Source of the DNA: Thecaphora thlaspeos | Lineage: Eukaryota > Basidiomycota > Ustilaginomycetes > Urocystidales > Glomosporiaceae | Length of the DNA: 64,000 nucleotides | Direction: 5' to 3' | NCBI GenBank assembly: GCA_900291925.1 | Contig: UWYS01000017.1 | Span: 378,001 to 442,000, forward strand | Part shown: piece after piece, positions 29,253 through 37,680 of the stretch | How the letters are laid out: each line of letters opens with the position of its first letter | How positions within the stretch are numbered: position 1 is the first letter of the stretch | Notes under the pieces: generated by a model | Databases searched by the model: none | Told to the model about the DNA's origin: nothing | Seen by the model: the letters and a program-made list of their open reading frames with translations, nothing else | Position numbers and translations under genes: made by a program

Positions 29253-30581
29253 GGCTGGGAGTACGAGTGGGTGTGTGCGAGGGAAGGGGGGATGATGGTG
29301 GACGGAGGAGTGCGTGCGTATAAGGCAAGTTAGTGTATGTAGGTGTGCGTGGCGTGTGGAGCAGCGTAGGGGCTGAGCATTACGATTCTTCCGCGCGAAA
29401 AGGGCGTGCGTGCACGGAGCGGAAGTCGGCGACGGAGTACTGCACAGTAGCGCTCCGAACGGAGCCGAATGCGCATGGGCAGGGCGTGGCGCGCGCCAGC
29501 GGTGCCGAACAATGCCGAAAGAAGCCTACATGCACCTCCTCTCGTCTAGAGGCGAGCTATGTAAGTAACTGTAGTTAGTTAGTTAGTTACAGGCCATGTT
29601 GTTTCTCGTTTTTAATTCAGATTCACAATTCATTTTCCTAGCCGCCACCCGGCAGGCGCGCGGTGCTTGTGTGTCTGTGGCTCTTGCGGCGCTCAAGCGC
29701 TGGCTCGGATGCCCCGCTCCTCGACAGCGATCCTTGACAGCGACCATGGCGACGCCAGGCGATCGTCGTCGCCATGTGTAACGCCACGTCGTCTCCTGAC
29801 CATCTAGCCATGGTACATACTGTAGCATCACTCGCATTTCCTCATTCCCGTGGCGACAGCTGCATACTCACAGCACCGTGCACCGTGTGCAGTGTACTGT
29901 ACTGTACTGTAGCGAACAGTGGGCCACCACCAGGTCTGCCTTGCCGTTGGATCATCGCCGCATCCAACGTCGCCCTGGTCGCAGCGGGCAACGACTGCAA
30001 ATCAAGGGCCGACGCTGCGCTCGTCGACGAGGCAGGAAATCGGAACGCTAAACGAAGAGGTGGCGGCACCACCGGTGCAGCAGTGCGGCCGGATACAGCG
30101 GCGCTATGGTGCTGTACTACTCAGCTGTCGAGCGCCTTGACACGCCGAGCATGACACCGTACCCTTGCTCTTCCCCCCCTCCTCGCCTGCTGGCCCACAG
30201 CTGCTTCGCTACAGTACATACTTTACATAAGCTGCCTTGGTCGGCTGTTGTTCCTTCAGCACCCCCCCCTGGTCTTGCCCACTTCATTTCTCCCTTCTTT
30301 CCGTGGCCCCTTTACAGTACCATCACCTCGTGCCACGCTTGCCCAGGCAACTGCCGCTCCCTCAACCCGGACCTCGGCCACAGCTCACGCCCCCACTCTG
30401 CCCCCGCGTGCATTACAGTAACAGCACTCGCCTTTGACTCTTTGCTTTCTTCTCCAGCTCTGTATCGCCTAGGCCTCATTCAATATCCGCGCCCGACCAT
30501 CCACACCGCCGCCCATACCCTTGCCAACGACCAAACCATACATTGCTTCACCCTTCAACACCCACCACGACCGCCATCACC
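29253..30581. promoter_or_regulatory. Divergent promoter region with recurring GCTACAGTA motif
   Basis: This 1.33-kb region lies between the divergent SF3B4 and MFS transporter starts. The 9-mer GCTACAGTA or its complement occurs at 29818-29826, 29905-29913 and 30208-30216, and shorter ACAGTA/TACTGT copies occur near 29441, 29895-29910, 30313 and 30416. GTTAGTTAGTTAGTTAC lies near 29574-29590. The segment is CT-rich nearer the transporter. No coding sequence is supported. Confidence 0.5.
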
Positions 30582-32048
30582 ATGGCCGCCACCCCCTCGA
30601 GCGCAGGCACAGACATCGAGGCCTCCCCTGCCCGCCCTGCCAGCCTCGCGTCATATTCTTCGCCCCAGAGCGATCCCAACCACACGCCCCATACCACCGA
30701 GAGCAACCAGCTCTCCATCCGCGACGAGAAACAGCTCGGCCTCGCCGACCATGACGATCCCAACCGACTCAACCGCTCCCCACCGCTGCAACACGGCCTC
30801 GCCGACGATGATGCTAGCTTCACTTTCCCCGAGGGCGGCCTCCGCGCCTGGCTATGCGTGCTTGGCGGCTTCTGCTCCACCTTCATCACCTTTGGCTACA
30901 TCAACAGCTTCGGCGTCTTCGAAGACTACTACTTCAGAGGGCCCCTCTCCCACAAGACTTCGAGCGAGATTGCCTGGATCGGCGCCTTCCAGTACTTTCT
31001 CATCTTTGCCGTCGGCGGCTTCTCGGGGCGCCTGTTCGACCTCGGCTTCTTCCGCATCGCCTTCACGCTCGGCGCCTCGCTCCTCGTCGTCTCGCAGATG
31101 TTCCTCAGCCTCTGCACCGAGTACTACCACTTCTTCCTCTGCCAAGGCGTCGGCCTCGGCCTGTCGTTTGGCATCGTCTTCAACATGGCCATCAACTGTC
31201 CCGCCCACCACTTCCAGCAGCGTCGCGCCATGGCCTTCGGCCTCGTCGCCACCGGCAGCTCGACGGGCGGCATCATCTTCCCCATCATGATCCGACGCCT
31301 TATCCCCGTGGTCGGCTTCGGCTGGACCATGCGCATCGTTGGGCTCTTTGCACTCGTCGCGACCATCTCGGCCTCGCTGTGCCTCAGCACACGCCTGCCA
31401 CCGACGATTGACGTGCGCGATAAGTCCAAGGGAGGCTGGAAGCAGGTCAAGTGGGTCGACCTGGATGCCTTCAAGCTGCCCGCCTACTCGTGGTTCCTCT
31501 TTGGCAGCACCGTCATCATGCTGGGTCTCTACATGCCCTTCACCTACATGGACGTCTTCAGCGAGCTCTACGACGTCCCCGCCAGCGGCTACTACCTGTC
31601 CATCCTCAACGCCGCCTCGATGTTCGGTCGCGCTCTGCCCGGTATCGTGGCGGATAAGGCGGGACTCATCAACGTCCTCGTTCCGCACGTTACCGTCTCT
31701 GGGATCCTGTTGATCTTCCTCCCGCTCTGCACCAACGTCGGCGGGCTGGTGACGTTTTCCATCATCTTTGGCTTCGCGTCTGGATGCTACGTCTCGCTTA
31801 TCCCGGCCTGCTGCGCGCAGCTGGGACCGACGTCCAACGTCGGCTCGAGGGTGGGCATGATGTTTGCTGTGGGCTCGCTAGGAGGGCTGTTTGGAACGCC
31901 CATCAGTGGAGCCATTCTGGGCAATGCGCCCAACTACGACTGGTGGGGCACAGCGACTTACTCGATGGCCACTGTCCTCCTGGGATCCTTTTGTCTGGGC
32001 ATGAGCAGATGGTATGCGCTGCAAAAGAGATGGGTTGGCAAGATCTAG
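30582..32048 (+). CDS. MFS transporter, monocarboxylate porter type
   Basis: A single exon gives 488 residues from the ATG in CACCATGGCC. About 85 hydrophilic residues precede the membrane domain, which begins PEGGLRAWLCVLGGFCSTF, the characteristic start of fungal monocarboxylate-like MFS proteins (Mch/Esbp6 group). Twelve helices are predictable: NSFGVFEDYY, IAWIGAFQYFLIF, GRLFDLGFFR, QGVGLGLSFGIVFN, RRAMAFGLVATGSSTGGIIFP, FGRALPGIVADKAG and VGSLGGLFGTPISG are family landmarks. GRLFDLGFFR takes the place of the loop 2-3 signature and SRVGMMFAVGSLGG lies in the second half. These proteins sit in the plasma or vacuolar membrane; many act on monocarboxylates, riboflavin or unknown substrates. 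The substrate is not predictable. It is convergent with the nitroreductase, only 71 bp apart. Confidence 0.9.
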   Translation: MAATPSSAGTDIEASPARPASLASYSSPQSDPNHTPHTTESNQLSIRDEKQLGLADHDDPNRLNRSPPLQHGLADDDASFTFPEGGLRAWLCVLGGFCSTFITFGYINSFGVFEDYYFRGPLSHKTSSEIAWIGAFQYFLIFAVGGFSGRLFDLGFFRIAFTLGASLLVVSQMFLSLCTEYYHFFLCQGVGLGLSFGIVFNMAINCPAHHFQQRRAMAFGLVATGSSTGGIIFPIMIRRLIPVVGFGWTMRIVGLFALVATISASLCLSTRLPPTIDVRDKSKGGWKQVKWVDLDAFKLPAYSWFLFGSTVIMLGLYMPFTYMDVFSELYDVPASGYYLSILNAASMFGRALPGIVADKAGLINVLVPHVTVSGILLIFLPLCTNVGGLVTFSIIFGFASGCYVSLIPACCAQLGPTSNVGSRVGMMFAVGSLGGLFGTPISGAILGNAPNYDWWGTATYSMATVLLGSFCLGMSRWYALQKRWVGKI

Positions 32049-32119
32049 CGCTCTGTCACCTGCCGCTGCCGCTGCTGCTGTTGCTGTTGCTGTTGCTTTT
32101 GACGCTTAATTCATCACGC

Positions 32120-32718
32120 CTAGCGAGAGCATAGATATTTACCTCTGCAACGTTTATAGCTTTGCCCTGAGTCGCAAGTTGCATGACATCTTGTTGTCAT
32201 TCCTGTTTCGGGTAGCCCGTTCTGCGTTCTCCGTTCTGCGGTCTCTGGTCGGACATTGGCTGCATCGAGGCGACATCTAGGGACGATCTTCTTGAAGACA
32301 GTCACCCTCTCCTCGTCGGGGAGGAAAGGCTTATCACCTGCCCCACCTTGAGGATGACCAAAGACGAGCTCAGACTTCAAGTCCCAAGCTTGGTTGATGT
32401 TCCAGTGCGCCTTTACGGCTGGAGCCGTGAGGTTACCGTAGTGTTGGAGATTTGCATCGTACCCTTCCAACTCTAGGGCGGTCCATGTGGCAAGTTGTGC
32501 CATACCCGAAGCGTGTTCGGACCACTGGGGTAACGAGGTGGAGTAAAGCGGCATCTTGCTCTGTAGACCCTTTATCATGCTGCTGTCTTCGAAGAATAGG
32601 ACTGTGCCGTATCCCACCTATCGTATCGGGTTTTTGTAAGTGTTATGTCAAAGCAAGGGTAAGAAAGGCACACTGTATGTGTGTGTGTGTGTGTGGATGG
32701 AGATTTAGCTGTAAAGAT

Positions 32719-32754
<36 letters not shown>

Positions 32755-33072
32755 CTAACACTACCACACCATCAAGCAGAAAGGGGGGGGAACACTCACA
32801 GAAAATCCAGCTGCCCTCCTCAGACCACCCTCTAATGCATCAGGCAGAGTAACCTTCTTCAATTCAGCAGGGACAATTTGAGTCCAATAATGATTGTGTT
32901 CCTTTCCAAGTAGGATGAAAACACAACTGCTCATACTGTTGAACAAAGAGGGAGAGTACTTGATGCTCTTCTGAACCAATGAGACAATGGCATTGTCAGG
33001 TAGGATCTGGTTCTTGGAGAGTGTGTAGATCACTTGATGTGCAGATAGGGCAGTGAGGAAAACTTTTGACAT
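32120..33072 (-). CDS. Frm2/Hbn1-like nitroreductase, probably CpG-damaged
   Basis: Exons 33072-32800 and 32617-32120 give 256 residues. The family is recognised from LSAHQVIYTLSK, APSxFNS-like YSPSLFNSMSS, VILLG-like VFILLGKEH, YGTVLFFED, PQWSEHASGMAQL, WTALELEGYDANLQHY and LKSELVFGHP. These FMN enzymes of fungi reduce nitro compounds and act in lipid or oxidative-stress signalling. Exon 1, the upstream DNA and most of the intron contain no CpG, whereas exon 2 has normal CpG content. In exon 1, positions that are usually Arg in the family (I recall RR before the IY motif and R before the VVxLLG strand) are His12, Gln13 and Cys50, each explainable by CpG to TpG or CpA change. The C-terminus runs about 50 residues beyond the usual end, suggesting loss of the original stop. 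The gene may be non-functional. An alternative start at 33081 would add three residues. Confidence 0.78.
32618..32799 (-). other. Nitroreductase intron filled with dinucleotide repeats
   Basis: The 182-nt GT-AG intron has a gtgagt donor at 32799 and an acceptor ending at 32618. On the plus strand it contains (TG)n at about 32679-32695 and (CT)n followed by (CA)n at about 32719-32754, plus a G8 run. The CpG-poor zone ends within it: the last CpGs before the zone are at 32622 and 32627. Confidence 0.75.
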
Positions 33073-33370
33073 GGTGTCCAAATGTGGTTTGCATGTGTGT
33101 GTGCCTGTGTGTGTTGGTGCTGGTGGTGGTGCTTATGTTGGAGGGAAAAAGTGTGTGATGTGTGAGAGCAAGAAAGGTTGTAGTGACAGTAAGAGAAGCC
33201 TGATATCACATACAACTTCTTATACATAAGACCAAGCACTACTTAGACACAGACTGTTGCCCAACATCTAGAGGGAGATAAAGACCATCCCTTGAACCCT
33301 ATCCCTTCCCCACATGCCAGCCCTACAGCCTTACAACTACACTTGGATGGAGTTAACAGTGCCACTTTTA
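33073..33370. other. CpG-free 5' region of the nitroreductase gene
   Basis: This stretch between the nitroreductase start and the transposon's left end contains no CpG and is rich in TG and CA dinucleotides. It should hold the nitroreductase promoter. No separate gene is seen. Confidence 0.6.
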
Positions 33371-33478
33371 ATGCATTTCCCTGGGAATCTGGCCTCCCTG
33401 GGAATCCAGCCAAAAAATCTACTTGTCAGCCTTCCTCACCACCACCACCCTTGCCATCACTGCTACACCATCTGCACT
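33371..33478 (+). repeat. Left terminal inverted repeat
   Basis: It starts ATGCATTTCCCTGGGAATC and contains an internal near-duplication (TCCCTGGGAATC twice, 17 bp apart), then a run of A and a CACCACC tract. It aligns to the complement of 35006-35119 along its length. It is free of CpG. Confidence 0.88.
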
Positions 33479-33692
33479 CTGTCAAGCACACCAGACAAGC
33501 ACTGCAATCAGTTCAACACTTGCTCCAAATAGTACATGCTCAGCTTTGCTTGCCTGGCCCAGAACTGCTGCCAAATGGGTTGGGGAAGAGGAGCCAGGGG
33601 GTCATACAAGGCAAGAGAGCTTGGTCCAGCAGAAGCAGGATCAACAGCAAGCTGGGGTGGTGCTGGCAGTGGCTCTGCAGGCTCAGCAGGTG

Positions 33693-35003
33693 CTAGAGGG
33701 GGTGGTTGTGCAACATCAGCCGCTTTGGCTTTGCCCTTTGCCTTGCCATATTCTTTGTTGGTGTTGCAGCATCTGCCTTGCTGGCCTTCTTGGTGGCTGC
33801 TTTCTCTTGTTCCTCCTTCCTCTGCTGCTCTGCAATGTCCATTGTAATCCTCTCTTCCCACAGGCACTCTCCTGTTGCTCAGCTGATCATGGTGTCCTTG
33901 CTGATGTAGCAATGGTTGCCTGCCTTGAAGGGCTCCTGGGCAGGCAGTGGCATCTCTTGGCAAGGTGGCTTGTAGCCAGGGAGCATCAAGAGGACCTTCT
34001 CAGGGGAGGGTGGCACTGTCAGACCCACATCTGAAAAAGCCTTGCATACTGCAGCATCCTTGATCTTGCTGTGGGTCTCAGTATAGAACCAAGCAAAATG
34101 GATGCAGTCAACCTTCTTTGTGCCACCAAGAGTGGCAACCTGGCAGCCATAGCTGTCCTTGATGGGGCCAAAGATGCTGGTATCAAGAGACTGGATAACA
34201 TGGGTGGCATGAGCCAGAAAGCAGACTGGCACAATGTGGTGCTTCCAGCACTGGTTGCAGAAGTCAACAGAGACATGCAAGGCATGCCCATCAAGGAGCA
34301 GCAGCCACCACTCACCCTCTTGAGCCCCAGTTGGCTTGGTTTGTGGCTCAAAGACCTGCTGAAGCCACTCAAGTGCCAAGTCATTGTTTGTCCAGCCCTT
34401 TGGCAAGACAGCAAAGTGCCAGTTGGGGCCCAGTCCCTCCATCCCCCCTGTGATCTCCAAGCTGGTGCCATGTGTCTTTCCAGAAATCACAAGCAGGTCA
34501 AGAAAGAGGCTGCTAGAGCCAATGCACTTGACAACAGTGGTGGACTTGCAGTTGTCTGGATGGACATGGAAGGCATTCTTCTTCTCAACAGGGACAATGA
34601 CCTTCTGATATCTGCTGAACCCCATGATGATGCCAGTTTTGTCCATGTTGTAGATCTGGTCTTGCACAATGTTGTACTGGCTGATGGTGCAGGAAAAGTT
34701 GGCATAGAAGCAGCTGAGGTTGTGAAACAAGGTACCATCCATGCACTGATTCTCTAGAGCTTGGTTGTACTTGCTCTGGAGCTGTGGGTGGTGCTCAAGG
34801 TAGTGCTGCACCCAGTTCTTGCCTGGTTCCCTCACCTGACAGCAGCTGCCAGCCTCTATGGGCAATTGCAGTGTTCCAGCATAATCCTGGACCATGGCTG
34901 GGGTGAGGGGGAAGCCTTGATTGGCACTGTGCTCAATGTGGGTGGCAAGAGCAGCCTTGGCAGCTGGTGAGAGGGCCTGCTGTGCTGTTCCAGAGAGCAA
35001 GAT
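33693..35003 (-). pseudogene. pogo/Fot1-like transposase, N-terminus lost, nonsense codon near C-terminus
   Basis: The frame is open from 35003 to a TGA at 33881-33879 (about 374 codons) and continues in the same frame for about 61 codons rich in Lys, Glu and Gln, which look like the normal basic tail, ending at a TAG at 33695-33693. The DDE_1 transposase core is clear: YNMDKTGI (first Asp), LLLLDGHALHV (second Asp) and IQSLDTSIFGPIKDSY (third Asp), preceded by the LSPAAKAALATHIEH CENP-B-type helical region and GKNWVQHYLEHHP. There is no initiating ATG and no room for the first helix-turn-helix, because the frame meets a stop exactly at the inverted repeat. Only two Arg occur in about 373 residues, with about 15 Cys and many His and Gln, as expected if CGN codons decayed to TGN or CAN. 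Confidence 0.85.
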
Positions 35004-35005
35004 TT

Positions 35006-35119
35006 AGTGCAGGTGGTGTAGCAGTGACAGCAAGGGTGGTGGTGGTGGTGGTGAGGAAGACCAACGAGTAGATTTTTTGGCCAGATTCCTAGGGAGGCCG
35101 GATTCCCAGGGAGATGCGT
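35006..35119 (-). repeat. Right terminal inverted repeat
   Basis: Read on the minus strand it starts ACGCATCTCCCTGGGAATC. It differs from the left copy by single-base transitions and a 6-bp (CAC)2 length difference. Unlike the left copy it keeps CpG at three places (near 35065, 35092 and 35117). Confidence 0.88.
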
Positions 35120-37680
35120 TGTAGCTGATATGCTAATGTCGTGGCAGAGTGCCGTCTGATTGAGGGCTTGGTGGGTCAAGTGGGCAGGCGACCGAGCCTC
35201 AGATCATCTTGAAAAGGGACCATGTGAGGGGCGGCGGAGAATTCGGCCCGCCCGGACTCACGACTGCCCACCCTGCCGTATTAAGGGAGTGCTCATGCCG
35301 TTACTCGGCTACCTTCCGTCCTCGGCCGCAGTGCACGCAAGTGACAAGCCAGAAAGGAGAGGTCGTGGCGACGGATCCGTCGAGATAAATTGGGCTTAGC
35401 AAGTTAAGGTTGTCAAATGTCTGACACGGCTGCCGAGGGCCAACACCGCCTCCCGCTGAGATCAAGGCGCAGGACTCCGCTTCGGGCAACCCGCCGTCGC
35501 CATCGGAACGGACCCGAAGATAGGGAGGACGGCAGGATCGAACCCACCGCACGCGGTCCCGGCTTTGGTTGCGGCGATGGGGACGGCGACGATAGGTCCT
35601 CGGGCCTCCGAAGTGGATGGGCGCGACCTCCAGAGGCGAGTGTGGAGGATAACTACTATGTAGGGGGATGCACCCTCGAAACGCCGTCAGCGCGCAGAAC
35701 AACCTTACGTCAAAGAGAGGGGCCCACCCTCTTCCCGACACCCGGCTGATCATGGGGTCGACATCGAAGGCGGGCCAGCTTTCATCATCCCAAACAGCAG
35801 CTGGCAAACCCTCACTCGTCAGCGCGATGGACGATCCTGACGCCGTGTGCAGCCATCATGGCGGCAAAGACTTTTGACGGGCTCGGCAGCGGCTTGGCAG
35901 CAGGCACAGCCTACGTACATACAGCAGGCGTTGTGTCTAGCCTCGCCTCTGCCCATGCGCAGAGGGGCGAGTGCGTGGCGGTGCATCTCGTCTTTCGTCT
36001 CCGCGCTTTTTGGTCGAGAACAGCGACCCGTCACGACAAAGGGGCTCACAGCTTTGCTTGTTCGTTTCGTGTCCTTTCTCTCGTGCTGGCAGAAGAGGGG
36101 AGAACGGAAAGGGCAGGCGTTCACGCAATTCCAGGGCTAAGAGAAAGCAGAGTGCGCTGGCCAGGGGCGGCCGCGGCCGGCCTCGGTGCCGGACAGCACG
36201 CAAGCACTCAGGGGGAAAGCCCATCATAACGTCGCTTGATCCGAAGCCAAATACAGTAAGAGGAGCAAAGCTCGGACCCATCCGATGGACGAGTGGCCAT
36301 GAGTTGAGGGCGTACGTATGTGCAAAGGGGAGCCAAGGGGAGCCAAGAAGGGTGCCGCGATGCGAGCGACATGGAAGAGGGAGGCGACCGAGGGAGAGGG
36401 CGTGCAGCTATGAGACGCCGGGGAAGAGAAGCGGACGAGGGCGAGCCTGGCCTCGGACGTAAAGTCGTCGGTCGCCGCCCTCCTCTGCCACAACCTCATC
36501 GTTTAGTAGTCGCCTTTCGTCTCTACCGCCATACCGTAACTTGTATCGCATCGGCCCGTCGACCGCCCGCTTCATCTCTCGGGAAGCAGCCGGACGCAGT
36601 CGCAACGGATCGCACCACGCCTCGCCCCCACCTCGGACAGCATCAGAAACGCAGCAACCAGTCGGCCGTCAGCCCACGCGGCCCGCCCCAACTTGACCTA
36701 GCTTTTGCTCTATCACCAACTGCCGCTCCGGCTGCACGGAGACCTACCCTTTGGCTCATCACAATATCGTTTTCGTCTACCTACGCTGTACAAGCTCACG
36801 ACCTGTCTACGTCTACGCCAGCCCCACCTCGGCATCTATCTATTCATAACGCCCCGTCCCAGTCTTTAAGTCTTTGTCCCGTCTTCGCCTTGCCACCAAC
36901 GTCGACGACGCACGACCAAGCCCCTTGCCCCTTGCCTTTCAGCGCCGCCTTCGGCCACTATTACTCTTACAAAGCTCGCCCATCCAGCCTCGCAACGGCC
37001 CGCTTGCACTCTCCACTGCCGGCAAAGCAACCCACCACTAGCCCGCCTTTGATCCTTTCTTACAACAACGGACCGAGACAGTCGGACTAATTAGAGTAGG
37101 ACACGAAGCCCCACACGATGCCCGGCATTATACCACCATTTTTCCCCTTTGAGCGCAGGAGCGTCGTCGACGATCTCCTCTGGCCCGACCGGCTCGTAAA
37201 TAGGCAAGCGTGAGTAGAAGCTGCGGCGAAAGCTCTTGAAGGAATCGCGGTGCGGCCGAGAGACCGCGCCGGGTGTGACGCTGTTGTATGCGGACCAGAG
37301 GTGCGAGAAGGGAGCTAGGCAGGCCGACGCAGCGAGGATCGCGTCAAAGGCGACGCTTTTCTGAAGGCTAAGCAAGACTACCTCTACTTCAGAGATGTTC
37401 TTGTCTGCACCTCTAGACCTCATTAGTCTGATGGCGGCGCAACGGCCTCAGAGACCTGTTGGAGAGAAGGGAGGATGGACCGTCTGCGAACAGCGTTCAG
37501 GGGCACTACTCCCAAATCGATGCCCGCTAAGCTGGTCTCTCTACGCCTCCATCCACCCCTGCCTCTGCCACACCTGAGGTTACGTCTGGTCTACTTGCCC
37601 GCACAGCCTCTCTCTCTCTCTCTTCTGCCACCTACCGTTGCTGCAGCAGTCCTGTGCTAAGGTGATCACTGACGCACAAG
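35117..37680. other. Long gene-poor stretch between transposon and mucin-like gene
   Basis: CpG density returns to normal just inside this 2.5-kb region. Open frames of 100-250 codons exist on both strands but overlap and lack motifs; the 36320-37090 plus frame is His/Pro/Ser-rich and unlikely to be coding. A minus-strand frame at 37091-37423 (110 residues, containing FKSFRRSFYSRLPIYEPVGP) has better composition and could be a small gene or fragment. The last 600 bp are CT-rich and likely contain the downstream gene's promoter and perhaps a missing first exon. Confidence 0.5.

Follow-up and report, generated by a model that had tools for sequence, protein, structure and literature searches.

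We describe a tract of DNA in the smut fungus Thecaphora thlaspeos from which the dinucleotide CpG has almost vanished, lying within a 64,000-nt stretch of contig UWYS01000017.1 (positions 378,001-442,000, assembly GCA_900291925.1), referred to here as the window. This CpG desert has two parts, a copy of a DDE_1 (Fot1/pogo-like) DNA transposon (33371-35119) and, to its left, single-copy host DNA (32629-33370) belonging to a nitroreductase gene. Comparison of its copies indicates that the transposon family was once CpG-rich and that the copies lost their CpGs separately, by change of CG to TG or CA. It is likewise closely supported that at the window copy the loss extends approximately 740 bp into the host gene, covering its upstream region, its first exon and nearly all of its intron, and that it ends sharply near the start of exon 2. 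The probable cause, with considerable room for doubt, is a methyltransferase-linked, active mutation of CpGs in repeats, resembling repeat-induced point mutation (RIP), that leaked from the transposon into the gene. If so, this one readable locus illustrates how an ordinary gene next to a transposon can be harmed by a CpG mutator directed at repeats, and the same process would also account for CpG deserts in genome scans of such fungi.

Every CpG of the window was mapped. CpGs were found at 32627, 33721 and 35065 with none in between, bearing out the original prediction, made from the sequence alone, that 33721 is the sole CpG between 32628 and 35065. The two resulting gaps are 1094 and 1344 bp long, and the next largest CpG gap in the window is 85 bp, in keeping with the dense CpG that had been claimed for the surrounding DNA. 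The profile along the window that had been suggested was run in 500-bp bins and confirmed the desert: the CpG observed/expected ratio (o/e) was 0.00-0.03 in the four core bins (33001-35000), 0.33 in the edge bin (32501-33000) and 0.74-1.52 in the remaining 123 bins. TpG+CpA o/e was 1.62-1.80 in the core versus 0.64-1.45 in the other 123 bins, and the GC content of the core was 0.47-0.55, so that the earlier description of the tract as about half G+C and rich in TG and CA also held. Because CpG is gone and TG and CA are raised, the desert reflects replacement of CG by TG and CA rather than a shortage of C and G. With C and G as frequent as they are in the transposon, a 1343-bp tract would lack CpG with a probability of approximately 5e-42. 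The right end of the desert falls within the right terminal repeat of the transposon, and the CpGs at 35065, 35099 and 35117 are still inside the element, whose last base is 35119; the left end lies approximately 10 bp within the 3' end of the host-gene intron, the CpGs at 32622 and 32627 being intronic. A search of the desert for structured RNA gave no Rfam match at the gathering score, and the only weak match, MIR1507, was not accepted: it scored 22.3 bits where the gathering score is 73, and it sits on the microsatellites of the intron.

The transposase frame of the window copy (L017) contains a DDE_1 domain (PF03184; E 1.2e-17, 64.5 bits, cut-off 22), and its score for HTH_Tnp_Tc5, a Tc5/CENP-B-type helix-turn-helix, is slightly under the cut-off (21.8 bits against 22.2); relatives P0210 and P0211 carry HTH_Tnp_Tc5. 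The copy is bounded by terminal inverted repeats of 80 nt that are 88% complementary. Together with the DDE_1 domain and these repeats, the Fot1/pogo-like assignment draws on a TA target duplication: TA stands immediately outside both terminal repeats in, for example, copies L026, L027 and L031, and at the window copy it stands on the left side, the right side reading TG. The closest proteins outside the genome are transposases of Ustilago trichophora, with 36-40% identity. The assembly from which the window comes (G000; 20.6 Mb in 32 contigs, with the window at C17:378001-442000) was searched with the DNA of the element and gave at least 125 matching pieces. Of the copies, 18 were read: 12 long ones of 1.7-2.2 kb and 6 short ones of 0.46-0.76 kb. 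Terminal inverted repeats were present in 18/18, and the common ends read TA followed by ACGCGTTTCCCTGGGAATCCGGCC, with scattered CG/TG/CA differences. CpG o/e was 0.02-0.13 in all 12 long copies, with TG+CA o/e of 1.63-1.70, and 0.34-0.52 in the 6 short copies. In other copies the DDE_1 domain is interrupted by stops.

Among the 12 long copies, 84 columns of the alignment had both TG and CA, compared with control alternation counts of 13 for GC, 5 for CC, 5 for GG and 2 for AT; a column in which some copies read TG and others CA is what separate decay from CG would leave. The states at 105 inferred CpG sites were CG 114, TG 470, CA 547 and TA 18, and mutation of both strands, CG to TG or CA, is closely supported. 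The changes favoured cytosines preceded by T. At TCG sites without a following A, 12 of 14 leaned to TG, with one tie and one leaning to CA, and at the mirror sites 11 of 14 leaned to CA, with one tie and two leaning to TG; TCGA sites, which have T on both strands, were balanced (28:32 over 6 sites). TpCpG accounted for approximately 73% of the changes at asymmetric sites. None of 20000 permutations (0/20000) reached the observed 5'-T bias, a result that serves as a guide and not as an exact probability since the copies are not fully independent.

CG was retained at only 72 of 1030 interior CpG site-copies, and strict non-CpG divergence was 0.036 per pair. With the copies treated as a star, change at CpGs was roughly 150 times as fast as at the average non-CpG site. 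Sites fixed for one state are uncounted in this ratio, and part of the divergence predates the insertions. CG was kept at 13 shared sites in 48/78 instances in short copies and 40/153 in long copies, and non-CpG divergence was 2.4% in the short and 3.2% in the long copies. This length effect resembles that of RIP, and a younger short lineage would be an alternative. Retention of CG was also higher in the terminal repeats (21/56 and 21/69) than in the interior.

The 741-bp left flank of the window copy contains no CpG and has 144 TG+CA where 92 are expected, an excess of 52; a genome search found no second copy of this flank (32629-33369). The gene that it enters has a predicted intron, supported by splice signals and a kept frame, and its spliced product is 72% identical over 100% of its length to PFL1_04553 of Pseudozyma flocculosa and matches 8cqv with E 2.7e-42. 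By this full-length similarity the predicted product is an FRM2/CinD-like nitroreductase; no Pfam match to the spliced protein was obtained at E 0.001. A search of the genome with PF00881 returned no nitroreductase and missed even the window gene, so the search was blind here and did not yield a paralogue as a CpG-rich yardstick. The best hit of the adjacent major facilitator superfamily (MFS) gene is PFL1_04554 (75%), whose locus tag is consecutive to PFL1_04553, and gene order is therefore apparently conserved. The two neighbouring genes are convergent, with approximately 70 bp between their stop codons (30543-32617).

The two exons of the nitroreductase gene differ in CpG content, with 0 in 273 bp of exon 1 and 16 in 330 bp of exon 2; CpG o/e in exon 2 is normal at the edge (1.00 over 32500-32628) and somewhat low farther away (0.38 over 32288-32400). 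GT and CT microsatellites at 32674-32758 lie near the left edge of the desert, as a boundary or by coincidence. Among 120 listed homologs of 783, arginine is conserved at position 12 in 118/118, at position 13 in 117/118 and at position 50 in 118/120. The window gene has CAT (His12), CAA (Gln13) and TGT (Cys50) at these positions, each of which fits a CpG transition, and so departs from FRM2/CinD-like nitroreductases both in Arg50 and in the N-terminal Arg-Arg pair, which we take to be the flavin site. Judged from the codons, CpG loss is the simplest account of the three substituted arginines, and the product is probably impaired. At columns conserved in at least 60%, exon 1 has 21 deviations, 7 of them attributable to CpG transitions, and exon 2 has 14, none of them so attributable (p 0.027). 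With the erosion of the family and the TG/CA alternation, these arginine codons support the original prediction that CpG-specific C-to-T loss was limited to a transposon and the DNA directly to its left.

A second copy of the element, L018, lies 38 kb from the window copy and differs from it at 10 of 1710 aligned positions, one of which falls between 33426 and 35060; several of the differences stem from a repeat unit missing in the left end of L018. The flanks of L018 are CpG-normal. Its terminal repeats retain CpGs that are gone from the window copy, the left end of which has lost all those that L018 has. Since L018 keeps these CpGs, the window copy lost them over a span in which the interior gained one difference. 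The CpG-free left tract runs on from the left end of the window copy without a break, and the simplest reading of the pair would be a recent episode over approximately 800 bp at the window copy. Nearly identical and with intact flanks, L018 is a built-in control for the leak.

Around the 18 copies, 6 of 36 flanks had a CpG o/e below 0.4 in both the first 100 bp and the next 150 bp (Table 1), so erosion mostly ends at the element. Single-copy status was checked for the CpG-poor flanks at L017 left, L019 right, L031 left and L026 right. Those at L017 left and L031 left are single-copy in the genome, and the window is thus one of two single-copy exceptions seen. The right flank of L019 is repeated, one match (98%) being the left flank of L022, and a diverged DDE_1 relative lies approximately 400 bp to the right of L024. 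The single-copy flank of L031 (L031:4154-4453, G000:C2:38153-38452) has a CpG o/e of 0.32 and 0.17 in its first two bins and may be a second leak, although no gene was identified in it. A CpG-poor block of 1.8 kb (L026:6022-7800) adjoins a further family copy, and two copies of it with 99% identity occur on contig C14.

The search for other CpG-poor repeats that the original prediction had suggested was successful. Four integrase-bearing (rve) loci (L013, L014, L015 and L016, from 11 matches) had a CpG o/e of 0.04-0.48 in 300-bp bins, so the process is not restricted to the DDE_1 family. Erosion was far milder at four further DDE_1 loci that have long open frames (o/e 0.80-0.95 within the frames). 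Two other DDE_1 elements, L038 (C5) and L039 (C2), are 99.2% identical over 2287 bp and have 664-aa open frames and a CpG o/e of 0.8; their 18 differences include 5 CpG changes and 12 other transitions, and the pair perhaps represents an early stage of CpG decay.

Homologues of DNA methyltransferases, which it had also been proposed to look for, were found at two loci in a PF00145 profile search of the genome, a search that could miss intron-split genes. A single frame at the first locus holds both a methylase and an SNF2 domain. This locus matches PDB 7r76, titled Rad8, which we take to be Cryptococcus DNMT5, with 1254 bits over 1567 residues; by this similarity it is predicted to encode a DNMT5-like methyltransferase. 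The best solved relatives of the second are DNMT1, and its predicted product is DNMT1-like. The genes that a methylation-deamination process would call for, of DNMT1 type and DNMT5 type, are thus both present. Both genes are CpG-normal, and CpG-free gaps of at least 150 bp are absent at both loci. CpG depletion in ordinary gene regions, named beforehand as evidence against a confined loss, was absent from these two loci and from the rest of the window.

Table 1. Features in and around the CpG desert, in window coordinates, and CpG-poor flanks of the family copies
Feature	Position or locus	Strand	Evidence or remark
CpG desert	32629..35064	.	lone CpG at 33721
DDE_1 (Fot1/pogo-like) DNA transposon copy (L017)	33371..35119	- (transposase strand)	family copies with common ends; DDE_1 match
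Left terminal inverted repeat, without CpG	33371..33449	+	inverted-repeat search, comparison with other copies
Right terminal inverted repeat, CpGs kept at 35065, 35099, 35117	35041..35119	-	inverted-repeat search, comparison with other copies
TA, target-site dinucleotide at left end	33369..33370	.	right side is TG at 35120-35121
Transposase open frame, 373 aa, DDE_1 domain, zero CpG	33879..35000	-	open reading frame (ORF) list, domain search
Nitroreductase exon 2 (predicted)	32120..32617	-	16 CpGs in first 330 bp; ORF, splice and homology evidence
Nitroreductase intron (predicted), GT and CT microsatellites	32618..32799	-	CpGs at 32622 and 32627 only; splice signals and frame
Nitroreductase exon 1 (predicted), 91 codons, zero CpG	32800..33072	-	Arg12, Arg13, Arg50 replaced by His, Gln, Cys
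Nitroreductase upstream region, zero CpG, single-copy	33073..33368	-	copy search, CpG count
MFS (monocarboxylate-transporter-like) neighbour gene, CpG o/e 1.00	30543..32048	+	domain and homology; marks gene order
CpG-poor flanks	L017 left (window), L019 left, L019 right, L022 left, L024 right, L031 left		

In the explanation that we favour, the CpGs of the repeat would be methylated or otherwise engaged by a CpG methyltransferase (DNMT1-like and/or DNMT5-like), C-to-T conversion would be driven actively, in the manner of RIP rather than via slow spontaneous deamination, and heterochromatin or the enzyme would have spread leftward beyond the element and into the gene. A more far-reaching form of it, which we offer tentatively and which may well prove wrong, is that Ustilaginomycotina possess an active, RID-independent, CpG-only hypermutation with a TpCpG preference, which would clear tracts of several hundred bp in one or a few episodes, spare short repeats and leak up to a sharp boundary in an adjacent single-copy gene, rewriting conserved residues. 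Under passive decay the repeat and the 740 bp to its left would be stably CpG-methylated and their 5-methylcytosines would deaminate spontaneously over long periods, with no dedicated mutator at work, the window copy being old and L018 a young daughter. The DNMT5-like and DNMT1-like genes, the intermixing of TG and CA and the CpG-normal flanks of L018, which fit a young insertion, all agree with this account, and the basidiomycete CpG signature is ascribed to Masc2-like methylation and deamination of methyl-cytosine in the excerpt of PMC4352252 considered here. The marked 5'-T preference speaks against it, as does the loss of terminal-repeat CpGs from the window copy while the interior gained at most one difference from L018. 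Methylated CpGs in vertebrates mutate approximately tenfold faster than other sites; the roughly 150-fold excess at the CpGs of this family exceeds that figure, which counts against passive decay. On balance we think it rather unlikely, though still a serious contender.

Decay of the left 740 bp before the element landed, owing to an older nearby repeat or an earlier insertion, would explain why the loss is one-sided, with CpGs kept in the right flank and right terminal repeat, and family elements are nested in or beside other CpG-poor repeats at several loci; yet the flank is a recognisable half of a gene, and a further single-copy CpG-poor flank stands beside L031. The idea that the flank is itself an older repeat was dropped, no second copy having been found in the genome, and we regard earlier decay in general as improbable. 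Far less credible still is the arrival of the transposon or the whole block from a CpG-poor genome, the source that the original prediction had named as its competitor. The edges are sharp at the element ends in most copies, as such an arrival would have it, whereas TG/CA alternation with retained CGs inside this genome, the CpGs kept in terminal repeats and short copies, and a left half formed by a gene whose best hits, together with those of its neighbour, bear consecutive P. flocculosa locus tags all speak against it; a foreign origin was rejected on the copy comparison and the gene order. Equally little credence attaches to CpG avoidance through codon choice or selection in the transposase and nitroreductase, without mutation. 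The window copy does keep a CpG-free open frame of 373 aa, but the loss spans terminal repeats, intron and upstream DNA while exon 2 is spared, it coincides with non-conservative changes at near-invariant arginines, and the DDE_1 domains of other copies contain stops.

Several observations weigh against active, RIP-like mutation with a leak, or against steps of the argument for it. The alternation test centred on TA gave 60 columns and has the same two derived states, so TG/CA alternation alone leaves TA possible as the ancestor; the retained CGs (114 versus 18 TA) and those kept in short copies favour CG as the ancestral state. Long strand runs of TG or CA were absent in 10 of the 12 long copies and reached p <0.03 in L021 and L022 only, and were accordingly dropped as a mark of RIP. 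The 5'-T preference was not visible in the left flank (TTG+CAA 33, TCA+TGA 27; background 1667:1453). Only the 60% conservation test separates the exons: at 90% columns the counts are 3/4 versus 0/3 (p 0.14), and with the P. flocculosa protein as the sole reference, CpG transitions suffice for 10 of the 31 differences in exon 1 and for 3 of the 24 in exon 2 (Fisher p 0.12). Gene conversion of the interior, or a window copy resident for longer, would weaken the case for a recent episode, and should L018 be the younger of the two, the flank of the window copy (L017) may have decayed slowly, before the split. Only two methyltransferase loci were found with PF00145, neither of them identified as RID.

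In Neurospora, RIP strikes duplicated DNA before meiosis, during the sexual cycle. As there, C-to-T change in T. thlaspeos is concentrated in repeats, enters adjacent unique DNA and affects shorter repeats less, a leakage from repeats into single-copy DNA that an excerpt of PMC4014442 describes for Neurospora and other Pezizomycotina; unlike RIP in that sense, the target is CpG and not CpA, CA accumulates as CpG is lost, and no RID was identified among the two PF00145 loci. Ascomycetes are called unique in RIP-like enrichment in PMC12543289. A DNMT5-like enzyme is encoded, as in Cryptococcus, where DNMT5 maintains CpG methylation (excerpt of PMC7862722; PDB 7r76); unlike that system, a DNMT1-like enzyme is predicted as well.

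The nearest parallels are found among basidiomycetes, in excerpts of the papers cited. Repeats without CpG, with possible RIP, are reported for Ustilago bromivora and U. hordei (PMC5106213), so that CpG-poor smut repeats are already published and T. thlaspeos shares with these Ustilaginomycotina the depletion itself; that account deals in dinucleotide frequencies of repeats, whereas here the loss was followed copy by copy, the 5'-T preference measured and the erosion traced into a single-copy gene. U. hordei also has raised substitution near retrotransposons, by a mechanism given as unknown (PMC9603552). Microbotryum shows RIP-like TpCpG hypermutation, CpG-directed and with a preferred 5' T in repeats as here (PMC5381629), but belongs to another subphylum, Pucciniomycotina, to which TpCpG has been called specific (PMC4014442), and in T. 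thlaspeos CpGs are nearly gone in all contexts, TpCpG being only preferred. In Rhizoctonia solani AG8 CpG hypermutation is commoner near repeats, and CpG-to-TpG changes likewise occur in genes and rise near repeats (PMC4014442); those are heterozygous single-nucleotide polymorphisms between nuclei, genome-wide, unlike the complete loss in a sharply bounded tract at one element seen here. A literature search, limited to listings and no proof of absence, found no paper on such a leak into a smut gene. What is new beside these systems is the sharp-edged leak into a gene and the TpCpG bias in this lineage.

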